Of a stretch of 64,000 bases of DNA, positions 30,974-58,104 are shown one piece after another (position 1 is the first letter of the stretch; each line of letters opens with the position of its first letter). The notes below the pieces were generated by a model. The model was not told the origin of the DNA. It saw only the letters and a program-made list of their open reading frames with translations, and did not search any database. The stretch comes from Desulfobacterales bacterium. GTDB taxonomy: Bacteria > Desulfobacterota > Desulfobacteria > Desulfobacterales > JAAELO01. The position numbers were made by a program, and so were the translations under genes. The DNA lies in contig JAAELO010000054.1 of the NCBI GenBank assembly GCA_024226555.1, positions 16,241 to 80,240 on the forward strand, given 5' to 3'.

Positions 30974-32515
30974 CTACTTCATTAAGTTTTTGAGGTTTAA
31001 AACTGGCGTTCCATTGCCAGCCATAGAAGGTAAAATAAAATCAGGAACTGTTACCATCTTAGATAAGTAGTTAAAAGCCGAAGCTGTAGCATCTGCCCAA
31101 TCATCTTTTCTTGTTGGTGTTGATGGTGTACCATCAAAAGCTTCCAACTCTTTCATGTAAGCATCATAGGTAGACTTGTTAGGAAAAGATGATCTAACAA
31201 TTCTTACCAATCCATTAGAACAAGCAGAAGCAAAAGGTTGAAATCTTGTTAATTTTGATTTATTACTTGGTGTTGGATCTGGTTTAACTATAAATCCTTC
31301 TGTCACCATTGCTTTTGCAGAATGTTCATACTCAATCTTCCCTGCTGCTGCTGGATCAACTGCAAATATCACATGGCAATCTGTACCATCATGTTTTGCT
31401 TGTTGTAATATTTTCTGATCTCTTTCACCAGAACGGAGTCTAAAACGCCCCTTAATATCACTTGCATTGTCTTTAGGATCTGTATTTTGTTCGTGGGTAT
31501 CCCAGACAATATAATAAAGCCCTTCATGCATGTATAAACGTGGACTCGAAGCAGTGTAATCAGGCCAACGATATGTATCTGATGGCTGTGTAGCCGCTTT
31601 ATCCCATGCTCTACAACACTTAGACTTAGCAGGATATTTTTCTACTTCAACTAACCAATCTCGCTGAAAATAGTTTGATCCTATAGGTCTTGCATACCAA
31701 TTACCCCAAAGTTGTCTAGCTCGTTCGTGATCAATCAAGTTTTGAAGCTCAGATAGATAACGGGGGTTCTTGGCAATTAATGCAGGATTATCGTAGATAT
31801 TTCCATTTATAAACGTAAATGTTTTTGGTGGTATGTAGGCTTTTTCACCGCTGACAGGGTTTGTAACGTAAACGGAGTCTGGTCTATTATCTTTAAACCA
31901 CTGCTCGTCATCGGCAAACACAAAATCGCCATTAATAACAACGAAGTAACGGATAACACCACAACGTGCTTCAACTGGGAAACCTGCATCATCTAAATAC
32001 CACTCAACTAACTCTAATACCCAGCTATCAGGATCTGGGTTTACTGTACCAATGCAAAATGAATCCATATCTGCTTTGGAACGTAGACAAGTCATCAGGA
32101 ATGTAACTTGCTCTTTACTAAACTGATCTATTTCATCGAAACCAATAAATGAATATTGTAAGCCTCGATGAGAGAACATATCCTTTTCGGTAAACATGTG
32201 ACTAAATCGCACATCTGAACCAGCAGGAAACTTATACTTCAAATTAGCTATGTTTGCTTTCCCACCAAATTGTGGGTACATCTCATTAGCCGTATCCCAT
32301 AACCCACCAGCACCTGTAAGCTCGTTATACTGCCTACGAAAGAATATGCCTTGAAAAAATGGATCATTTATGTGCTTCAGTGGAAGCATGTTTAGAAGGT
32401 AAGATTTACCGCTTCCCCTCGCACCTCCATAAATCGTAAATGAAACCTTATCTACAAGGTTACATGCTAACTCTTGCTTACCCTTCTGAGGGGTAATAGT
32501 AATTTGATTCGTCAT
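30974..32515 (-). CDS. Terminase large subunit
   Basis: Walker A-like YGGARGSGKSYLL; FFRRQYNEL; FIGFDEIDQF Walker B; nuclease Asp residues (WDKAATQP, FAVDPAAAGK). Confidence 0.92.
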   Translation of the reverse strand: MTNQITITPQKGKQELACNLVDKVSFTIYGGARGSGKSYLLNMLPLKHINDPFFQGIFFRRQYNELTGAGGLWDTANEMYPQFGGKANIANLKYKFPAGSDVRFSHMFTEKDMFSHRGLQYSFIGFDEIDQFSKEQVTFLMTCLRSKADMDSFCIGTVNPDPDSWVLELVEWYLDDAGFPVEARCGVIRYFVVINGDFVFADDEQWFKDNRPDSVYVTNPVSGEKAYIPPKTFTFINGNIYDNPALIAKNPRYLSELQNLIDHERARQLWGNWYARPIGSNYFQRDWLVEVEKYPAKSKCCRAWDKAATQPSDTYRWPDYTASSPRLYMHEGLYYIVWDTHEQNTDPKDNASDIKGRFRLRSGERDQKILQQAKHDGTDCHVIFAVDPAAAGKIEYEHSAKAMVTEGFIVKPDPTPSNKSKLTRFQPFASACSNGLVRIVRSSFPNKSTYDAYMKELEAFDGTPSTPTRKDDWADATASAFNYLSKMVTVPDFILPSMAGNGTPVLNLKNLMK

Positions 32516-32539
32516 CTGTCCTCCATGACAAAAAAAGTA

Positions 32540-32737
32540 AGGGGGTTTATTACTGGAGGGCTGATAATAAACCGTTTACAATCACCTGAAGGGTGAAAGT
32601 CCCTTAAACCATATACTCTCGCAATGGTCAGGCACATTGCATACCCGTAAGGGTTTAGAAGCCCTTGGCAGTGGAAACTTGTTAGTGTAACTTAACAGAC
32701 GCGCTCTAATTGCGGAATGTGAGAGGTTACCTAAACG
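32540..32737 (+). ncRNA. Compact structured RNA element between terL and terS; HEARO/omega-RNA-like (hypothesis)
   Basis: Nested helices: AAGGG/CCCTT, GCAATG/CATTGC, ACCC-GTAA-GGGT tetraloop hairpin, AGGGCT/AGCCCT long-range, CTCT/AGAG; no coding content; only large gap in the packed structural operon. Confidence 0.5.
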
Positions 32738-32744
32738 AATCTTT

Positions 32745-33098
32745 TTATTTAGCTTTAGGACTAAATACTGCTAATTGGGGTTTATGTTGTATTGTTTCAT
32801 TCTTGCTTGATTTTTTGTTTTGTTTCTTCAAGCCATCATTGATATGTGCTACAGCCTTATCAGGTGCTTTCATGAACTGTGTCCAGAAAGTAAACCTATC
32901 TTGTAATGCGCTGTGCTGTTTTGTAGATATTTGATATTTCTTGCGAGTGTCTCCCGCAGCATAACCACGCAAGATGTCATTGATTTCAAGAATTTCAGTA
33001 TTAAGTTCAGCAATTATTGCAAGCCAACTATTCACACCATCATCATATAACGATTGTGCTAGGTTTAGCTTACGTGCGTCCTTGGTAATTCCTGCCAT
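32745..33098 (-). CDS. Terminase small subunit candidate
   Basis: Position upstream of TerL; MAGITKDARKLNLAQSLYDDGVNSWLAIIAELNTEI...; AAAAGGAG ribosome-binding site before ATG at 33098. Confidence 0.55.
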   Translation of the reverse strand: MAGITKDARKLNLAQSLYDDGVNSWLAIIAELNTEILEINDILRGYAAGDTRKKYQISTKQHSALQDRFTFWTQFMKAPDKAVAHINDGLKKQNKKSSKNETIQHKPQLAVFSPKAK

Positions 33099-33196
33099 GA
33101 AAACTCCTTTTATCAAAAATATAACAAAAAAACTTATACCTCTACTAATAGTTTAACCTATATCACATAAAGAGTCAAGCGTTAAATGTTAATATT

Positions 33197-33403
33197 TCAT
33201 AAATCATCATGAAAATCTTCGTCAATAGATAAACATGAACCATCTGAACTAAGATTCGTTAGATACCCATGATCATATTCTTTATCACTTGCAGAGTATT
33301 TTTTTGATGATTGATAGCGACACTCTGAGCAATAATCCCAGTCATTGGATTTACGTTTCATATCTTCTCTTGAGAGAATGCAATCACAGGCTTTACATCT
33401 GAT
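33197..33403 (-). CDS. Small zinc-finger-like ORF (CxxC..CxxC), no canonical start for the conserved part
   Basis: Frame reads IRCKACDCILSREDMKRKSNDWDYCSECRYQSSKKYSASDKEYDHGYLTNLSSDGSCLSIDEDFHDDL*; AAGGA 7 nt upstream of ATC; absent from track. Confidence 0.45.
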   Translation of the reverse strand: MRCKACDCILSREDMKRKSNDWDYCSECRYQSSKKYSASDKEYDHGYLTNLSSDGSCLSIDEDFHDDL

Positions 33404-33457
33404 AACAAAATCCTTTTTGTCAATTGAAAGGTAGTTAAAACTATATTCTATACTAAT

Positions 33458-33487
33458 AGTATAGCATGGATATTATAAAACTGTCAA
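33458..33487 (-). promoter_or_regulatory. Sigma70-like promoter driving the minus (virion) operon
   Basis: Minus strand TTGACA - 18 nt - TATACT. Confidence 0.55.
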
Positions 33488-33783
33488 CAACAAAACATAG
33501 TTAACGTGTTATAAAATACTATAATATTGGTAAAAACAATCTTATATGGCTATTTTGTATATTATAATGGTATTTTCATATACACAATTATGTACATTTC
33601 AACTACCTCACAAAAACTGACTAAACTTATCCACAGGTAATATAATATTATTATGTGTATTACTGGTATATGTAATAGCACTAAGCATAGGAGCTTAAGA
33701 TACTAATTTAAACATATACCTACACACACATACTTATAAATATATATGTATATAAGTATATATTTATAAGGTTTTAAGTATAT

Positions 33784-34110
33784 CAATCGAGGAAGGGAGG
33801 AAGTTTGGAGGTAAAAGAACCCCAACCCAATCACTAACCAAGAAGGTAGTAAATCAGGTTAGTTCTTTTACCTCAGAATCTTATATCAACCGTATCAGGT
33901 TAGTATAGCCCATTGGCAACCAATTATTATTAAGGTTAAATTGGTTCGACAGCCTTCCTTGCCTTAACAAGTCCACTCCCTGTTCTGTCTTACGAACTCA
34001 GTTGCCGCGTGGAGTTATCTTCTACGGCTACCCTGTAAAGGGGATCAAGGGTGGTGAGGGAATAATAGAGTTCTTCTACCATCGACATATCTTCCTTGAC
34101 CGCTAAAAAA
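33784..34110. other. Non-coding, strongly inverted-repeat-rich intergenic block
   Basis: 13-bp GAGGTAAAAGAAC/GTTCTTTTACCTC, ACTAACC/GGTTAGT, AACCAATT/AATTGGTT, CCCT-GTAA-AGGG and long-range AGGAAGG/CCTTCCT. Confidence 0.45.
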
Positions 34111-34245
34111 TCCATTTAAAAATCCTTCTAGCTTATTATTAGTTTAAACGATTCATCTATGTCTTGTCAATTTGTTTTTTTAATTTGCATAGTTCAAAAT
34201 ACCCCACTACATTTAATTTATCACTTAAAAATAGAGAACAAGAAA

Positions 34246-34491
34246 ATGGAATTCATTGAAACACAAGGAAAGCGTGTAAAGAAAACTAATAATAATAAAG
34301 TAAAGTATGATGAAATATTACCAAGCAAAGAATTACTAAAGAAACTCCCTGTAGATCCAAGAGCATGGCATTGTAAAACTGTTGAAGAATATTACTTATG
34401 GAAATTCTCATCAGATTATTCAGGATTAAATAGTGATGATACAAATTTTAGTGAAGATCTACATCATGACGTTGATGGAACGTATTTTTAA
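34246..34491 (+). CDS. Hypothetical protein
   Basis: MEFIETQGKRVKKTNNNKVKYDEILPSKELLKKLPVDPRAWHCKTVEEYYLWKF; start trimmed. Confidence 0.5.
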   Translation: MEFIETQGKRVKKTNNNKVKYDEILPSKELLKKLPVDPRAWHCKTVEEYYLWKFSSDYSGLNSDDTNFSEDLHHDVDGTYF

Positions 34492-34597
34492 TAAATTAGC
34501 CTATATTAATAGACTAATCTGAGAATGTTAGTGTAGTTATCTTGTTTTGTTACTGCACTAACAAATATAGATAAAGTGTTATTACAGATAAAGAAGC

Positions 34598-34627
34598 TTG
34601 ACATAAGTGTTACAAATAGTTTAAAAT
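34598..34627 (+). promoter_or_regulatory. Sigma70-like promoter upstream of the AAGGAT hairpin array
   Basis: TTGACA followed by 18 nt then TAAAAT. Confidence 0.55.
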
Positions 34628-34769
34628 GTTAGTACGGATGAAGAGTTTAAGAATATTATAAATATAAGAAAGTTTTTATTTGACGAACTCTGAAATCCAG
34701 ATCATAATTAAAACATGAAATATAAAAACAAAGATTAAACGTTAGTTTTCATGGAAGGAGGAGTGGTCA

Positions 34770-34915
34770 GTATACCCACACGAAGGATCGCAAAAAGTAT
34801 ACAAAAATGGATTGGAGGGTATGGTCTGGTATAGCCAAGGTAAGGATTACCGAAGTATACCACTTTTCATAGTTGTGGTTTGGTGTAGCCCCGCAAAGGA
34901 TTGTAAAAATATACC
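34770..34915 (+). ncRNA. Three tandem hairpins with AAGGAT loops: candidate CsrA-binding leader or sponge RNA
   Basis: GTATAC..CG-AAGGAT-CG..GTATAC; GGTATA..GGTA-AGGAT-TACC..TATACC; GGTGTA..GCA-AAGGAT-TGT..TATACC; compensatory changes between copies. Confidence 0.6.
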
Positions 34916-34992
34916 ATGATTTAGTTTGGGAGGTTTTACGGCTTCCTCCCACTAACCAAAAAAAGCCGCACAATATGAACAAGGAAATAGTT

Positions 34993-35577
34993 ATGAGTAA
35001 CAAGGAAGTTTTAGATGTTGTTGTACTGATTGATAAGTCTGCCTCAATGGGTGGAATGGAAGAAGAAACAATTGGTGCTTTCAACAGTTTTCTACAAGAG
35101 CAGCGTAATCTCGAAATTGAAGCATACCTAACACTTATCTTATTTGATCATGAGAAAGAGTGTATCTATTTTCGTGAGCCACTTGACCGAGCAGAAGAGC
35201 TTACAAGTAATATCTACAAAGTACGGGGTAATACAGCAATGTATGACTGTATGGGGCTTGCTATTGAAGCTATAGCTCTCGCTAATAAGTCTGATAACGT
35301 TCTTTTCCTCATTCAATCTGATGGTCAAGAGAATTCAAGCAGAATGTATAGTGGTTCTAACATCAAACAATTAATCTCTGATTCTGAAAAAGCAGGTTGG
35401 CAGTTTAATTTCATTGGAACTGGTATTGATGCTTTTGAAGAAGGTTCTAAGTTTGGCTTAAGAGCTAACTCATGCCTTTCAGTTGCTAAATCAGCTCGTG
35501 GCTTTGAAACCTATGGTGCAACGATGGATTGTTGTACAAAAGCCTACGTTGATGATGTTGTACTCACTAAAGCATGA
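34993..35577 (+). CDS. von Willebrand factor A (VWA) domain protein
   Basis: VVVLIDKSASMGG (DxSxS MIDAS), NTAMYDCMGLAIEAI, LIQSDGQENSS; AAGGA ribosome-binding site before ATG at 34993. Confidence 0.85.
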   Translation: MSNKEVLDVVVLIDKSASMGGMEEETIGAFNSFLQEQRNLEIEAYLTLILFDHEKECIYFREPLDRAEELTSNIYKVRGNTAMYDCMGLAIEAIALANKSDNVLFLIQSDGQENSSRMYSGSNIKQLISDSEKAGWQFNFIGTGIDAFEEGSKFGLRANSCLSVAKSARGFETYGATMDCCTKAYVDDVVLTKA

Positions 35578-35720
35578 AACGCAATGAGTTAAATAAACTC
35601 AGGAAAGGAAACTGGTGTTCAAGGCCAAAACATAAAATAAGAAAGATTTGGAATAGACGCACCAGAAGACGTTTTAAAGAGTATTCAAAAATACAGGAAA
35701 AACAGGATGTTCAAGGATAA
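35574..35720 (+). CDS. Small basic protein (48 aa), not in track
   Basis: MKRNELNKLRKGNWCSRPKHKIRKIWNRRTRRRFKEYSKIQEKQDVQG; start overlaps the VWA stop. Confidence 0.4.
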   Translation: MKRNELNKLRKGNWCSRPKHKIRKIWNRRTRRRFKEYSKIQEKQDVQG

Positions 35721-36006
35721 CGAAATAAAAATATCTGATGCTCGTGCATTTACCGCACTACCCGATAAGCTTTCAACTGGTAATTTTGAAGAGAAAATGA
35801 CAGTAGAAAAATTATGCGAAGTGATGAAATGGGATATAGACAGAGTACCTAAGTTAGCCAATAGAGAATATACCTACAAGATGCGTAAAATACTTGGTCA
35901 ACTCACAAAGCAAGAGTTGAGAGTAGCTGCCAAACGTGAAGCCAAGGAACTAAAGATTAAACGAGGAAATGCAAAGATGAAAAGATTAATAGGAAGACTT
36001 CAATAA
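35707..36006 (+). CDS. Hypothetical protein
   Basis: 99-aa ORF with charged C-terminus, tightly packed. Confidence 0.5.
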   Translation: MFKDNEIKISDARAFTALPDKLSTGNFEEKMTVEKLCEVMKWDIDRVPKLANREYTYKMRKILGQLTKQELRVAAKREAKELKIKRGNAKMKRLIGRLQ

Positions 36007-36167
36007 TGTCAGAACTAAATCAACTACGTATAGGTTCAAACAGGTTTTTAAGCTTTCTTACTGTGATGCTCATTCTTACACTTGATGCAAATAACGGTAA
36101 AGATATGCTAGACGTACTTGTACCTTACATTGAATCACTAACAATTGTTAATCTAGGTAATCATTGA
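36006..36167 (+). CDS. Small protein (53 aa), not in track
   Basis: MSELNQLRIGSNRFLSFLTVMLILTLDANNGKDMLDVLVPYIESLTIVNLGNH; couples to the nrdJ start. Confidence 0.45.
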   Translation: MSELNQLRIGSNRFLSFLTVMLILTLDANNGKDMLDVLVPYIESLTIVNLGNH

Positions 36168-37906
36168 TGGAATCTGAATTCAGAACAGATTTGGGGAGAA
36201 ATATCTTCAAACAAAAATATGCACTTACACAAGCTGAAACTTGGAAGCAACGTGCTAAAACCATTGTTGATTTTGTTTGTGGAACATGTGGTGGTACACA
36301 ACATCCTCTCATGTCTCTTGAAGATAGAGAAACCTTAATTCAATACATAACTGAATTCAAATTTATGCCCGGTGGTCGTTACATCTATTATGCAGGTAGA
36401 GAAGCACCATTTTACAATAATTGCTATCTTTTTAAATCAGAAGAAGATACACGCGAAGAGTGGGCAGACTTATCTAAACGTGTTACTAGTGCATTAATGA
36501 CAGGTGGTGGTGTTGGTAATGACTACTCAGTGTTTAGACCACAAGGAAGCTTGTTAGGTAGAACTGGTGGGCAAGCTAGTGGCCCTATCCCATTAATGTA
36601 TTTAGTGAACGAGATAGGTAGAAACGTAAAACAAGGTGGTTCAAGAAGATCTGCAATTTATGCCTCACTAAACTGGAAACATGATGATGCACAAGTATTC
36701 ATGAGAGTTAAAGATTGGGACAATATACCTATTGGTAATACTGGAATTACTATGGGGGATGCCAAGAGAGCTGATTTCAATTTCCCCTGCCCTCTTGATA
36801 TGACTAATATTAGTTTGAATTATGACAATGCTTTCTTAAGTACTTTGTGTGGTGAAAATATTGATGATTTTGACATGGAAGAATGGGAGTGTCTATTTGA
36901 CCCTGAATGTGAAACACATGCTTTTATGCATGAAGTAGTTTTACCAGAAACCTTTGTTGATAATGTTAAATTTGCAATGCGTAATGGAGAGCCAGGATTT
37001 TCATTTAACTTTTTTGATAAAGAAAATGAAACTGCTCGTAACGCTTGTACTGAGGTTACTAGTGAAGATGATTCAGATGTATGTAATCTTGGTTCAATTA
37101 ATATGGGCAGAATTGAAACTATTGAAGAATTTATAAAAATTACAGAGCTTGGAAGTAAGTTTTTAGTTTGTGGCACATTGAGAGCTAAACTACCCTCTGA
37201 AAAAATAGCTGAAATACGTGAAAAGAATAGACGTTTAGGTTTAGGGATAATGGGTGTTCATGAATGGCTACTCAAGAGAAAATATGACTATGAAGTTACT
37301 CCAGAAATGCACAAATGGTTATCAGTTTATGAAACTGTTTCAGAAAGTGCTGCTAATGAGCATTGTGATCGTTTATTCATTTCTCGCCCCATTGCTTATA
37401 GGGCTATTGCTCCTACTGGTACTATTGGGATCATTGCTGGTACAACAACAGGAATAGAACCTCTATATGCTGTAGCCTACAAAAGACGTTATCTTGTTGG
37501 TGGCTCTCATTACCGTTATGAGTATGTAGTAGACCACACAGCAGACACATTAATAACTGAGCATGGGATAGATCCTAACGATATTCAAACAGCTTACCAG
37601 TTAGCGGAAGATCCTGAGAAGCGCATTAAGTTTCAGGCAGATGTACAAGACTATATTGATATGGCTATTAGTTCTACTCTGAACTTACCAGAATGGGGAT
37701 CTAAACATAACAATGAGAAAACTGTTATTAAAATAGCGTCAATCGTAGCTCAGTATGCACCACGCTTGAGGGGTTTAACATTCTACCCTGATGGTTCAAG
37801 AGGTGGTCAACCTCTTACACCCATCTCTTATGAAACTGCACTTAAACATAAAGGCGTTATTTTTGAAGAGAATGACTCATGTAAAGGTGGAGTTTGCGGA
37901 TTATGA
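36167..37906 (+). CDS. nrdJ: Adenosylcobalamin-dependent (class II) ribonucleotide reductase
   Basis: GGGVGNDYSVFRP, GGSRRSAIYASLNWKHDD, PTGTIGIIAGTTTGIEP, C-terminal CKGGVCGL redox pair; start set to ATG at 36167. Confidence 0.88.
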   Translation: MESEFRTDLGRNIFKQKYALTQAETWKQRAKTIVDFVCGTCGGTQHPLMSLEDRETLIQYITEFKFMPGGRYIYYAGREAPFYNNCYLFKSEEDTREEWADLSKRVTSALMTGGGVGNDYSVFRPQGSLLGRTGGQASGPIPLMYLVNEIGRNVKQGGSRRSAIYASLNWKHDDAQVFMRVKDWDNIPIGNTGITMGDAKRADFNFPCPLDMTNISLNYDNAFLSTLCGENIDDFDMEEWECLFDPECETHAFMHEVVLPETFVDNVKFAMRNGEPGFSFNFFDKENETARNACTEVTSEDDSDVCNLGSINMGRIETIEEFIKITELGSKFLVCGTLRAKLPSEKIAEIREKNRRLGLGIMGVHEWLLKRKYDYEVTPEMHKWLSVYETVSESAANEHCDRLFISRPIAYRAIAPTGTIGIIAGTTTGIEPLYAVAYKRRYLVGGSHYRYEYVVDHTADTLITEHGIDPNDIQTAYQLAEDPEKRIKFQADVQDYIDMAISSTLNLPEWGSKHNNEKTVIKIASIVAQYAPRLRGLTFYPDGSRGGQPLTPISYETALKHKGVIFEENDSCKGGVCGL

Positions 37907-37931
37907 ATACTACAAATAAAAAGGAATTAAA

Positions 37932-38543
37932 ATGAGTTTAAATAGATATTACGGAGTTAAGAACTTCACAAAAGCAGTAATAAAATCTCACGCTTCTGGT
38001 AAACCTTTTAACCCTGCTGCCTGTCGTGGCACTTTAGAAGTGTTTTATTATAACGATGAACAAAAAGGTGGCTACAAAGGTAAGGATATGTCCTTTGGAA
38101 CTTGTATACGAGCAACATGTATGCCTGAATATGTCTACACTTTAAATCTGTTATTAGACAAGGGTGCAAATATTATAGCTGCTTCTGCAACTTCGCATGG
38201 AATTCTAACTCAATGCTCTTATACCTTGGAAGAAACAGATGAATTTACCAATGAGAAACCACAAGTTGAAGATCACCCAATACGAGGCACAGAAAAAGAA
38301 AAAACATCTGTGGATGAGACTACGGAATCATCTGAAAGTTCAACAGATATGCCAGAACCTACCACGAGCGAGAGTAGGAACTTACCGGATTGGGATTATG
38401 CGGAGTCTATGAGTGAAGGTGTTAGTAAAACTGATGCTAAAAAAGCACTTGAAGCATATGCACTAGAATTTGGTGTTGATCTTAATCGTGGGCAGAAGTT
38501 TGAAACAATGATGCAGAATTTCAGAGTAGAAATGGAAGATTAA
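37932..38543 (+). CDS. Hypothetical protein coupled to nrdJ
   Basis: 203 aa, conserved-looking Cys residues (PAACRGTLEV, GTCIRATCMPEYVY), acidic low-complexity middle. Confidence 0.5.
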   Translation: MSLNRYYGVKNFTKAVIKSHASGKPFNPAACRGTLEVFYYNDEQKGGYKGKDMSFGTCIRATCMPEYVYTLNLLLDKGANIIAASATSHGILTQCSYTLEETDEFTNEKPQVEDHPIRGTEKEKTSVDETTESSESSTDMPEPTTSESRNLPDWDYAESMSEGVSKTDAKKALEAYALEFGVDLNRGQKFETMMQNFRVEMED

Positions 38544-38544
38544 C

Positions 38545-38997
38545 ATGATTAGGCATTTCAGTATCAAGGAGCTTGTACCAAAACACATTTATGAACAATG
38601 GGGAGATATGTCTTGGTGGTTTCTAGATTTCAGAGCAATTAAGACGTTAGAGTGGTTGCGTGATGAGCTTGGTTCTTGCACTGTCAATAATTGGGCTTGG
38701 GGTGGTTCATATGATCAAAGTGGATTACGCACTTACCAATTTTATCAACAGAATTCACTTACTCCAAAATACATAGCAAAAGAGCTGGTAGCTGAAAGTT
38801 TTAGTCAACATAAATATGGAAGAGCTTTTGATTGTAAGTTTACAAATCACAAAGCAGAAGATGTAAGAGAGTTTATAAAAACAAATTGGAATATATACGG
38901 TTATGAGTGGCCTATAACAATAGAAGAAGATACAAATTGGGTTCACTTTGATACACGCAATAGACCATATCACAAGGTTTATACGTTTAAGCAATAA
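38545..38997 (+). CDS. M15-type peptidase / endolysin-like
   Basis: SFSQHKYGRAFDCKF (HxxxxxxD) ... TNWVHFDTR (WxH) zinc-peptidase signature. Confidence 0.75.
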   Translation: MIRHFSIKELVPKHIYEQWGDMSWWFLDFRAIKTLEWLRDELGSCTVNNWAWGGSYDQSGLRTYQFYQQNSLTPKYIAKELVAESFSQHKYGRAFDCKFTNHKAEDVREFIKTNWNIYGYEWPITIEEDTNWVHFDTRNRPYHKVYTFKQ

Positions 38998-39044
38998 AGC
39001 TTTCTCGTAAAACACTAAAGTAACTTAAACAGAGGAAGTTAAAA

Positions 39045-39449
39045 ATGGCTAAAGAAGATGAAATAGAAAATGCAGAAATAATCGAAGAGACAACTCTTGA
39101 AGATGAAACCACAGAAAACCCAGATGCTGTTCAATACGAAATTATTGACGGTGATCAAGATGGTGTTAAAAAGAGAGGTGTTAGAGCTGGTGGGAATGTT
39201 ATTTTCCTTGTTAGTGAAAGCTTCACTAATGAACAAGTTGAAGAAGTCTTTAATCTTGGTAACAAGTTCTTTAATGATGGAATTCAGTTTGCCAATATGC
39301 AGCAAGATCAACGTGTACCACAGGCTTTAGCAATGTTGGGTATTACACCAAAGGTTATAAAGCAAATGTATGATATGGCTGTACAGCTTGAGGAAAAAGA
39401 AGCAGCAGAAGCTGCTACAACTCCTGAACCTGTAGAAAACGCGGCTTAA
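39045..39449 (+). CDS. Hypothetical acidic protein
   Basis: 134-aa ORF, acidic N-terminus, AGGAAG ribosome-binding-site region. Confidence 0.5.
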   Translation: MAKEDEIENAEIIEETTLEDETTENPDAVQYEIIDGDQDGVKKRGVRAGGNVIFLVSESFTNEQVEEVFNLGNKFFNDGIQFANMQQDQRVPQALAMLGITPKVIKQMYDMAVQLEEKEAAEAATTPEPVENAA

Positions 39450-39459
39450 CGGTTAGCTC

Positions 39460-39759
39460 ATGTTTTGTGATCCTCTTATGAACAAGATTCTATATATAGG
39501 AATTTTCCTACTCGGAATGTTTGTTATGTGGCTTCCTAGTTTTGTAATAGAAACAAAGCATGAGTTTATTCTAAAATATAGTGACCTTGACGATTATTAT
39601 GTGGATTGTATGAGCTGGCACGATGGTACAGGCTATGTTAAAATGAATTCAATAGGTAATACAGAAGGAACGTACTCATTAACATGTGCTGATGGACATG
39701 CACCCTCTGATAAGCATCCAATCAAATATAAACAAAACTCTTTAATTAGGGGAAACTGA
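39460..39759 (+). CDS. Membrane-anchored small protein
   Basis: N-terminal hydrophobic helix ILYIGIFLLGMFVMWLPSFVI. Confidence 0.5.
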   Translation: MFCDPLMNKILYIGIFLLGMFVMWLPSFVIETKHEFILKYSDLDDYYVDCMSWHDGTGYVKMNSIGNTEGTYSLTCADGHAPSDKHPIKYKQNSLIRGN

Positions 39760-39773
39760 AAAAGGAATTTTCA

Positions 39774-40043
39774 ATGTCTACCAACAAAAAGACTAAAGTA
39801 AAACAAGGATCTAACATATTCCACCTTTCTACACGTCAGCATGATTTATGGGTTGCTATGCGTAAAGCTAGACGCTACCTAACAAACACTGAATTACGAG
39901 ATATAACAGGGATTACATGGCCTACTAATCGTATGAGTGAGCTTGTATCAATGGGTGTTAGTATCTCAAAGAAATGGATTGAGATTACAGATGATCATGG
40001 AAAACTGATCAAAGTTAGAACATATAAACTTGAGGCGGCATAG
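39774..40043 (+). CDS. Hypothetical (winged-helix-like)
   Basis: 89 aa; LWVAMRKARRYLTNTELRDITGITWPTNRMSELVSMGV resembles a helix-turn-helix. Confidence 0.5.
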   Translation: MSTNKKTKVKQGSNIFHLSTRQHDLWVAMRKARRYLTNTELRDITGITWPTNRMSELVSMGVSISKKWIEITDDHGKLIKVRTYKLEAA

Positions 40044-57497: not shown

Positions 57498-57810
57498 GTT
57501 ATTTCCTTTATTTCTTATAGTTTTATTAAACCTAACATTACTGCTAGGGCTGTCCTCTTGGACATCACCACTAAACATTCCTGTTCAATATTCCACTTTA
57601 AATGTATCCTTCCTCTTGGTGTGTTATTAAGACTAGAAGAGGTTTTATAGGTATGCCAATTAAAAGTTTTATGGCTCGTAAGCTCTTATTTTTAATATAG
57701 AAACTACTTGACACGGATTGTCAAACAAATTAATCTTTAGAAGTTTGTCATATTTGACAAATTAATTTTTAAACAATAAATAATTTCAGATTATAGGGAA
57801 ATACAAAACT

Positions 57811-58104
57811 ATGTTAATACTTACTCGCAGACCTCAAGAAGCTATAATGGTTGGTGATGATGTCACTGTAACTGTTCTTAGTATAAAGGGTAATCAAGTA
57901 CGCTTGGGTATTGATGCCCCTCGTGACGTAGATGTGCATCGTGAAGAGATTTATCACAAGGTGAAGGAAGGTGTTCCCCATACCCCTCAACCCCATGTAA
58001 CAAACTCTGAAGACCCTCAAGGTGGAAATAAAATAAAAACCACAGTCATCAGAACTAAAAGTAGATCTTACCCTGAAGATGATGAAAATCGAGGTAATCA
58101 CTAA
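57811..58104 (+). CDS. csrA: CsrA/RsmA-like carbon storage regulator
   Basis: [52 protein letters not shown], diagnostic CsrA core plus a phage-specific C-terminal tail. Confidence 0.95.

Follow-up and report, generated by a model that had tools for sequence, protein, structure and literature searches.

A non-coding stretch in front of a phage VWA-domain gene carries three near-copies of a two-tier hairpin that present CsrA-type motifs, and the same phage encodes its own CsrA. We propose that this array probably belongs to a 5′ leader through which CsrA controls the VWA mRNA in cis, and that the control is probably repressive. As judged from the aligned sequences, conservation in a related contig, L058 (PIVJ01000097.1), provides the decisive argument that the CsrA-type hairpin array is real. 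The window throughout is the whole stretch of DNA analysed, that is, 64,000 nucleotides of contig C54 (JAAELO010000054.1), on which (80.2 kb in all) an integrase-like gene adjoins tRNA-Val.

Layout of the leader and folding of its units

The non-coding stretch, promoter included, lies between a small ORF (34246–34491) and the VWA-domain gene, the ATG of which is at 34993. Its parts, with the flanking gene and the phage csrA, are listed here.

34598–34627, + strand: predicted sigma-70 promoter TTGACA-N18-TAAAAT (pattern scan; hexamers and spacing identical in L058)
34680–34708, + strand: possible second promoter TTGACG-N17-CATAAT (consensus match only)
34714–34755, + strand: 5′ leader hairpin CATGAAA/TTTTCATG (predicted window folds)
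34767–34805, + strand: unit 1, two-tier hairpin with loop CG-AAGGAU-CG and outer stem GUAUAC/GUAUAC (predicted folds)
34826–34863, + strand: unit 2, two-tier hairpin with GGUA-AGGAU-UACC and outer stem UGGUAUA/UAUACCA (predicted folds; loop AGGGAU in L058)
34880–34917, + strand: unit 3, two-tier hairpin with GCA-AAGGAU-UGU and outer stem UGGUGUA/UAUACCA (predicted folds; UACACCA in L058)
34928–34952, + strand: hairpin GGGAGG/CCTCCC just 5′ of the ribosome-binding site (predicted folds)
34981–34987, + strand: Shine-Dalgarno AAGGAAA of the VWA gene, a CsrA-like ARGGA site (direct reading; AAGGGAU in L058)
34993–35577, + strand: VWA-domain protein of 194 aa, phrog_7371, the likely regulated gene (67% identical in L058)
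57811–58104, + strand: phage csrA, 97 aa, encoding the likely ligand of the array (kept in the relative beside terD)

Both the TTGACA-18-TAAAAT promoter that the original prediction had placed upstream of the array and the csrA gene that it had placed at 57.8 kb on the same element were recovered, the former by pattern scan. The possible second promoter, which reads TTGACG-N17-CATACT in L058, lies in the window within a strongly conserved leader block. The arms of the 5′ leader hairpin are found in L058 too, with one change, and downstream of it there is a conserved GGA-rich stretch, ATGGAAGGAG. The window hairpin 34928–34952 is strong, and at its place L058 has a strong hairpin of unrelated sequence (TGCTGTCC/GGACAGCA).

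AAGGAT occurs on the + strand at 34783, 34842 and 34896. Each unit around it is 38–39 nt long and consists of an outer stem of 6–7 bp, an asymmetric internal loop with an invariant CC on one side and AA on the other, and an inner stem of 3–5 bp, with the GGA looped. Folding agreed with the earlier claim of three two-tier hairpins presenting AAGGAT, in that this hairpin is the minimum-energy structure of each repeat folded alone, with z-scores of −3.4, −3.4 and −2.3 for units 1–3 of the window. Two details of that claim have to be corrected. The repeats, which were called adjacent, are spaced 54–59 nt apart, with spacers of ~16–20 nt; and unit 2, which was said to present AAGGAT, has in the window a loop of 3, 5 or 7 nt and no clean hexaloop. 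Of the six units known from the window and L058, all but window unit 2, which is shifted in register, present ARGGAU as a hexaloop closed by a short stem.

When the full predicted leader was folded together with 60 nt of VWA coding sequence, the three window hairpins formed at pair probabilities of ~0.92 or more, with the GGA ~97–100% unpaired. With the base-pair span limited to 70 nt, the values drop to ~0.16 for unit 2 and ~0.55 for unit 3 of the window. The full leader of L058 gives inner-stem probabilities of ~0.99, 0.48 and 0.8–0.9 for units 1–3, such that its unit 2 is predicted to form about half the time or less. Folded by itself, the region 34740–35000 is no more stable than shuffled sequence (z 0.2). 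In the window, the Shine-Dalgarno region could also pair over a distance with the spacer between units 2 and 3; L058 seems not to preserve this pairing, which was therefore dropped.

Motif counts by themselves are weak evidence for a CsrA array. Across the whole window AAGGAT is not enriched (41 found against 42 expected). Within 34740–34992 ARGGAT occurs three times against 0.24 in shuffles, none of 1000 of which scored as high; this figure overstates independence, because the units repeat one another, and conservation in L058 is for the same reason the better evidence. On both strands of contig C54 (window 1–64000 together with L063) we also counted 12 ARGGAT hexaloops on stems of at least 3 bp, where first-order Markov sequence has a mean of 4.4.

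Conservation and distribution of the array

L058 is a 7.75-kb contig of a MAG that carries the label Bacteroidetes. It runs colinear with window 32235–39805 at ~76–80% DNA identity and keeps the promoter, all three units, the VWA gene and the gene order. Identity is 57% upstream of the promoter, 69–87% in the three units and 40% in the linker from unit 3 to the Shine-Dalgarno, while at four-fold degenerate sites it is 57% in the ribonucleotide reductase (RNR) gene and 54% in the VWA gene. Against this background, 17 of the 18 ARGGAT bases of the three loops are identical; by our own arithmetic, the chance of at least 17 identical bases at 55% neutral identity is ~3e-4. The sole change, AAGGAU to AGGGAU, falls at the R position of the CsrA consensus ARGGAU. 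Loss of the AAGGAT loops from a relative with conserved flanking genes would have spoken against the array; L058 keeps them within ARGGAU. The conservation of the array rests on this one relative. A coding function of the array was dropped on reading of the alignment, in which the L058 indels break the frame.

The pairing of the stems was assessed on the same six units, three from the window and three from L058. The two-tier structure pairs 90.9% of cells, as compared with 18–46% when the partners are slid. One outer-stem pair varies among A-U, G-U and G-C; in the inner stem, GC, AU, UA and GU occur at one position and CG and GC at another; and three pairs have changed on both sides. Shuffled partners scored as high in 8 of 500 trials for paired cells, 15 of 500 for the covariation score and 143 of 500 for both-side changes. 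This excess is modest, as expected for six sequences, and statistical covariation is not claimed; most of the covariation is between repeat copies, because the array was found in a single relative. Thus, of the earlier proposal that the stems change in compensatory ways around an invariant loop, the stems do mostly re-pair, but the loop carries the one L058 change, which stays within ARGGAU.

On present evidence, the array appears to belong to this phage lineage. A covariance model of the unit, run on ten loci, the own genome and the L058 genome, found only the six known copies. The array is absent from the csrA-bearing Vibrio phage D279 and from in front of more distant VWA relatives. Scans of viral contigs with the VWA protein gave no match, and neither did a stricter unit pattern; a TATAGCC-N5-AAGGAT-N5-AA pattern hit 32 stretches, none with an outer stem, which were taken as chance, and the leader motif GTTTTCATGGAAGGAG was found at three places, all unrelated. 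Of the relatives yielded by terminase scans, only L058 (genome contigs) extended to the array, the others being too short or too distant, and an RNR alignment scan yielded one locus at 25% identity. The RNR large chain of the window (36164–37906, 580 aa) is closest to the adenosylcobalamin-dependent type, below the curated cut-off of that type. Rfam had no match above threshold for the window leader or the L058 leader, so a known Rfam element was dropped as the identity of the leader.

The CsrA of the phage and its relatives

The phage CsrA passes the Pfam and NCBIfam cut-offs, and over its core it can be aligned gap-free with CsrA/RsmA/RsmE chains of solved structure, the matches including 2jpp and the 2mf0 series. 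Residues L4, R6, R7, V40, V42, R44 and I47, which we take to be important for RNA contact, are unchanged. By its sequence, therefore, the phage appears to have the RNA-binding-competent CsrA that a CsrA-regulated leader calls for. The protein resembles gammaproteobacterial CsrA, and it shares only 45% identity, over 53 residues, with the CsrA encoded on the chromosome of the MAG to which the window belongs; the gene 3′ of that chromosomal csrA reads as fliW.

In the genome of L058, CsrA was matched only once, on contig C181 (L065), which is syntenic with the window from terD to csrA and encodes a protein 66% identical to the phage CsrA, C-terminal extension included. L058 and L065 are separate contigs of one MAG, and from their shared synteny with the window we infer that they come from one phage. 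As the phage-contig match is the only CsrA in this MAG (G099, labelled Bacteroidetes), either the contigs are misbinned or the phage CsrA occurs in a host without its own CsrA. Binning is doubtful, because two related phages sit in apparently unrelated MAGs. A further record, L066 (CAKLQH020000034.1), is listed as Acinetobacter phage MD-2021a and is probably mislabelled: the 37 genes annotated on it (alaS, purA, crp) look like those of a chromosome, and its csrA lies near alaS.

Other GGA-containing regions were seen around csrA itself. In L065 (1460–1500), AAAGGAUAUAAGGAAAU precedes the csrA ATG, pointing to possible autoregulation, and the window copy (57795–57812) has only AUAGGGAAAU. Beside csrA, on the − strand at window 57498–57640, the terD leader is GGA-rich (AGGAAGGAU, GAACAGGAAUGUU, AAAGGAAAU); on our reading, few of these sites are kept in L065, which makes this leader a weaker candidate for a CsrA target than the VWA leader. 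Taken with the more distant VWA relatives that have no array, this argues that GGA arrays are not a general feature.

A probable CsrA-controlled leader and its alternatives

In the reading that we favour, the array would be part of a ~360-nt 5′ leader of the phage VWA-gene mRNA and would offer CsrA, most likely that of the phage itself, several places to land. Dimers of the protein would attach with high affinity to the hairpin loops that show ARGGAU; from there they would bridge to the weaker ARGGA site overlapping the Shine-Dalgarno, so that ribosomes would be kept off the VWA mRNA until CsrA becomes scarce or is titrated. We infer transcription, CsrA binding, the binder (phage or host CsrA) and repression rather than activation from the sequence. 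Features looked for in a CsrA-regulated leader were found, in that ARGGAU-type sites are predicted in hairpin loops within the 5′ leader and a GGA site is present at the Shine-Dalgarno (AAGGAA in the window, AAGGGAU in L058). The Shine-Dalgarno is purine-rich anyway, and a GGA there is by itself weak evidence for a CsrA site.

The geometry of the loops supports this reading. Ligands selected by SELEX for CsrA have the consensus RUACARGGAUGU and mostly have six-nt loops closed by AC/GU, with at most 4 contiguous bp (PMC7652899), and the five ARGGAU hexaloops on short stems fit them. In E. coli, CsrA binds a high-affinity hairpin site of glgC and bridges to the ribosome-binding site, and the pgaA leader has six CsrA sites (PMC7652899). 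The phage leader resembles both in being long and untranslated and in having several GGA sites; it differs in that its sites are three near-copies of a two-tier hairpin in a csrA-encoding phage, and in that CsrA binding here is predicted.

The original prediction had left it open whether the array is a decoy or a leader. L058, in which the ARGGAU loops are kept, the stems re-paired and csrA kept, lends sequence support to the CsrA link common to both. A decoy like CsrB or RsmZ, by which the array, as a small RNA or a 5′-UTR fragment, would soak up host or phage CsrA during infection, would account for three high-quality ARGGAU hairpins in tandem with further GGA sites, and a phage would gain by retuning host Csr targets. 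CsrB/CsrC and RsmX/Y/Z likewise present GGA in tandem hairpins. Such decoys, however, are independent transcripts, and here the array runs into a gene: a pattern scan of window 34000–35700 detected no intrinsic terminator that would separate the array from the VWA ATG, none was seen by eye in L058, and a decoy would need a 3′ end of its own. The units also carry extra outer stems, no Csr/Rsm RNA family matched in Rfam above threshold, and there are only three strong sites, as opposed to the many more of CsrB, which binds ~18 CsrA subunits (PMC7652899). Since the array has stayed linked to the promoter, the CsrA-like Shine-Dalgarno and the VWA gene as a unit, and no terminator was found in the window, we favour the leader and consider the decoy quite unlikely.

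Two further readings dispense with CsrA. Neither the outer stem nor the internal loop with its invariant CC and AA, both conserved, is a known requirement of CsrA, so these may point to an additional or a different ligand; each unit is, moreover, built in a more complex way than the hairpins of CsrB. An RNA element that is recognized by a small molecule or by an RNA-binding protein other than CsrA, and that resembles CsrA sites by coincidence, would explain this, but not readily why the loop is held to ARGGAU, degenerate position included, in a phage lineage that encodes csrA, and we rate it as unlikely. The self-complementary GTATAC and the position of the repeats downstream of a promoter could also suit operator or replication repeats for a DNA-binding protein, the hairpins then following from the palindrome. 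Yet the inner stems differ among copies and still pair, and where the outer stem has changed, G-U pairs maintain it in the RNA, something that symmetry of DNA sites would not call for; sites acting at the DNA level thus seem very improbable.

Beyond the proposed CsrA-controlled leader itself, we raise tentatively, as a possibility with perhaps some chance of being right, that this phage lineage has a Csr circuit complete in itself. The phage CsrA, with the conserved C-terminal extension, would control the phage's VWA mRNA through the repeated two-tier hairpins, in which the conserved internal loop would serve as a further element of recognition and perhaps arrange several CsrA dimers along the same leader; the leader may also titrate host CsrA.

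CsrA homologues on mobile elements have precedent. In the available text of PMC7366521, csrA is reported in 30 of 2517 phage genomes and CsrT on Legionella ICEs is discussed, and in that of PMC9144972 csrA is reported on phage JC1. As far as these texts go, the regulator is described there without a phage target and without an established role; here, a conserved candidate target lies on the same phage. A literature search, which covered few subscription papers, found no report of a CsrA target on a phage's own genome. Phage csrA genes were thus already known, and with the conserved candidate target the question of their role takes a concrete form that can be tested: CsrA may serve the phage in timing its own genes, whether instead of reprogramming the host or in addition to it.
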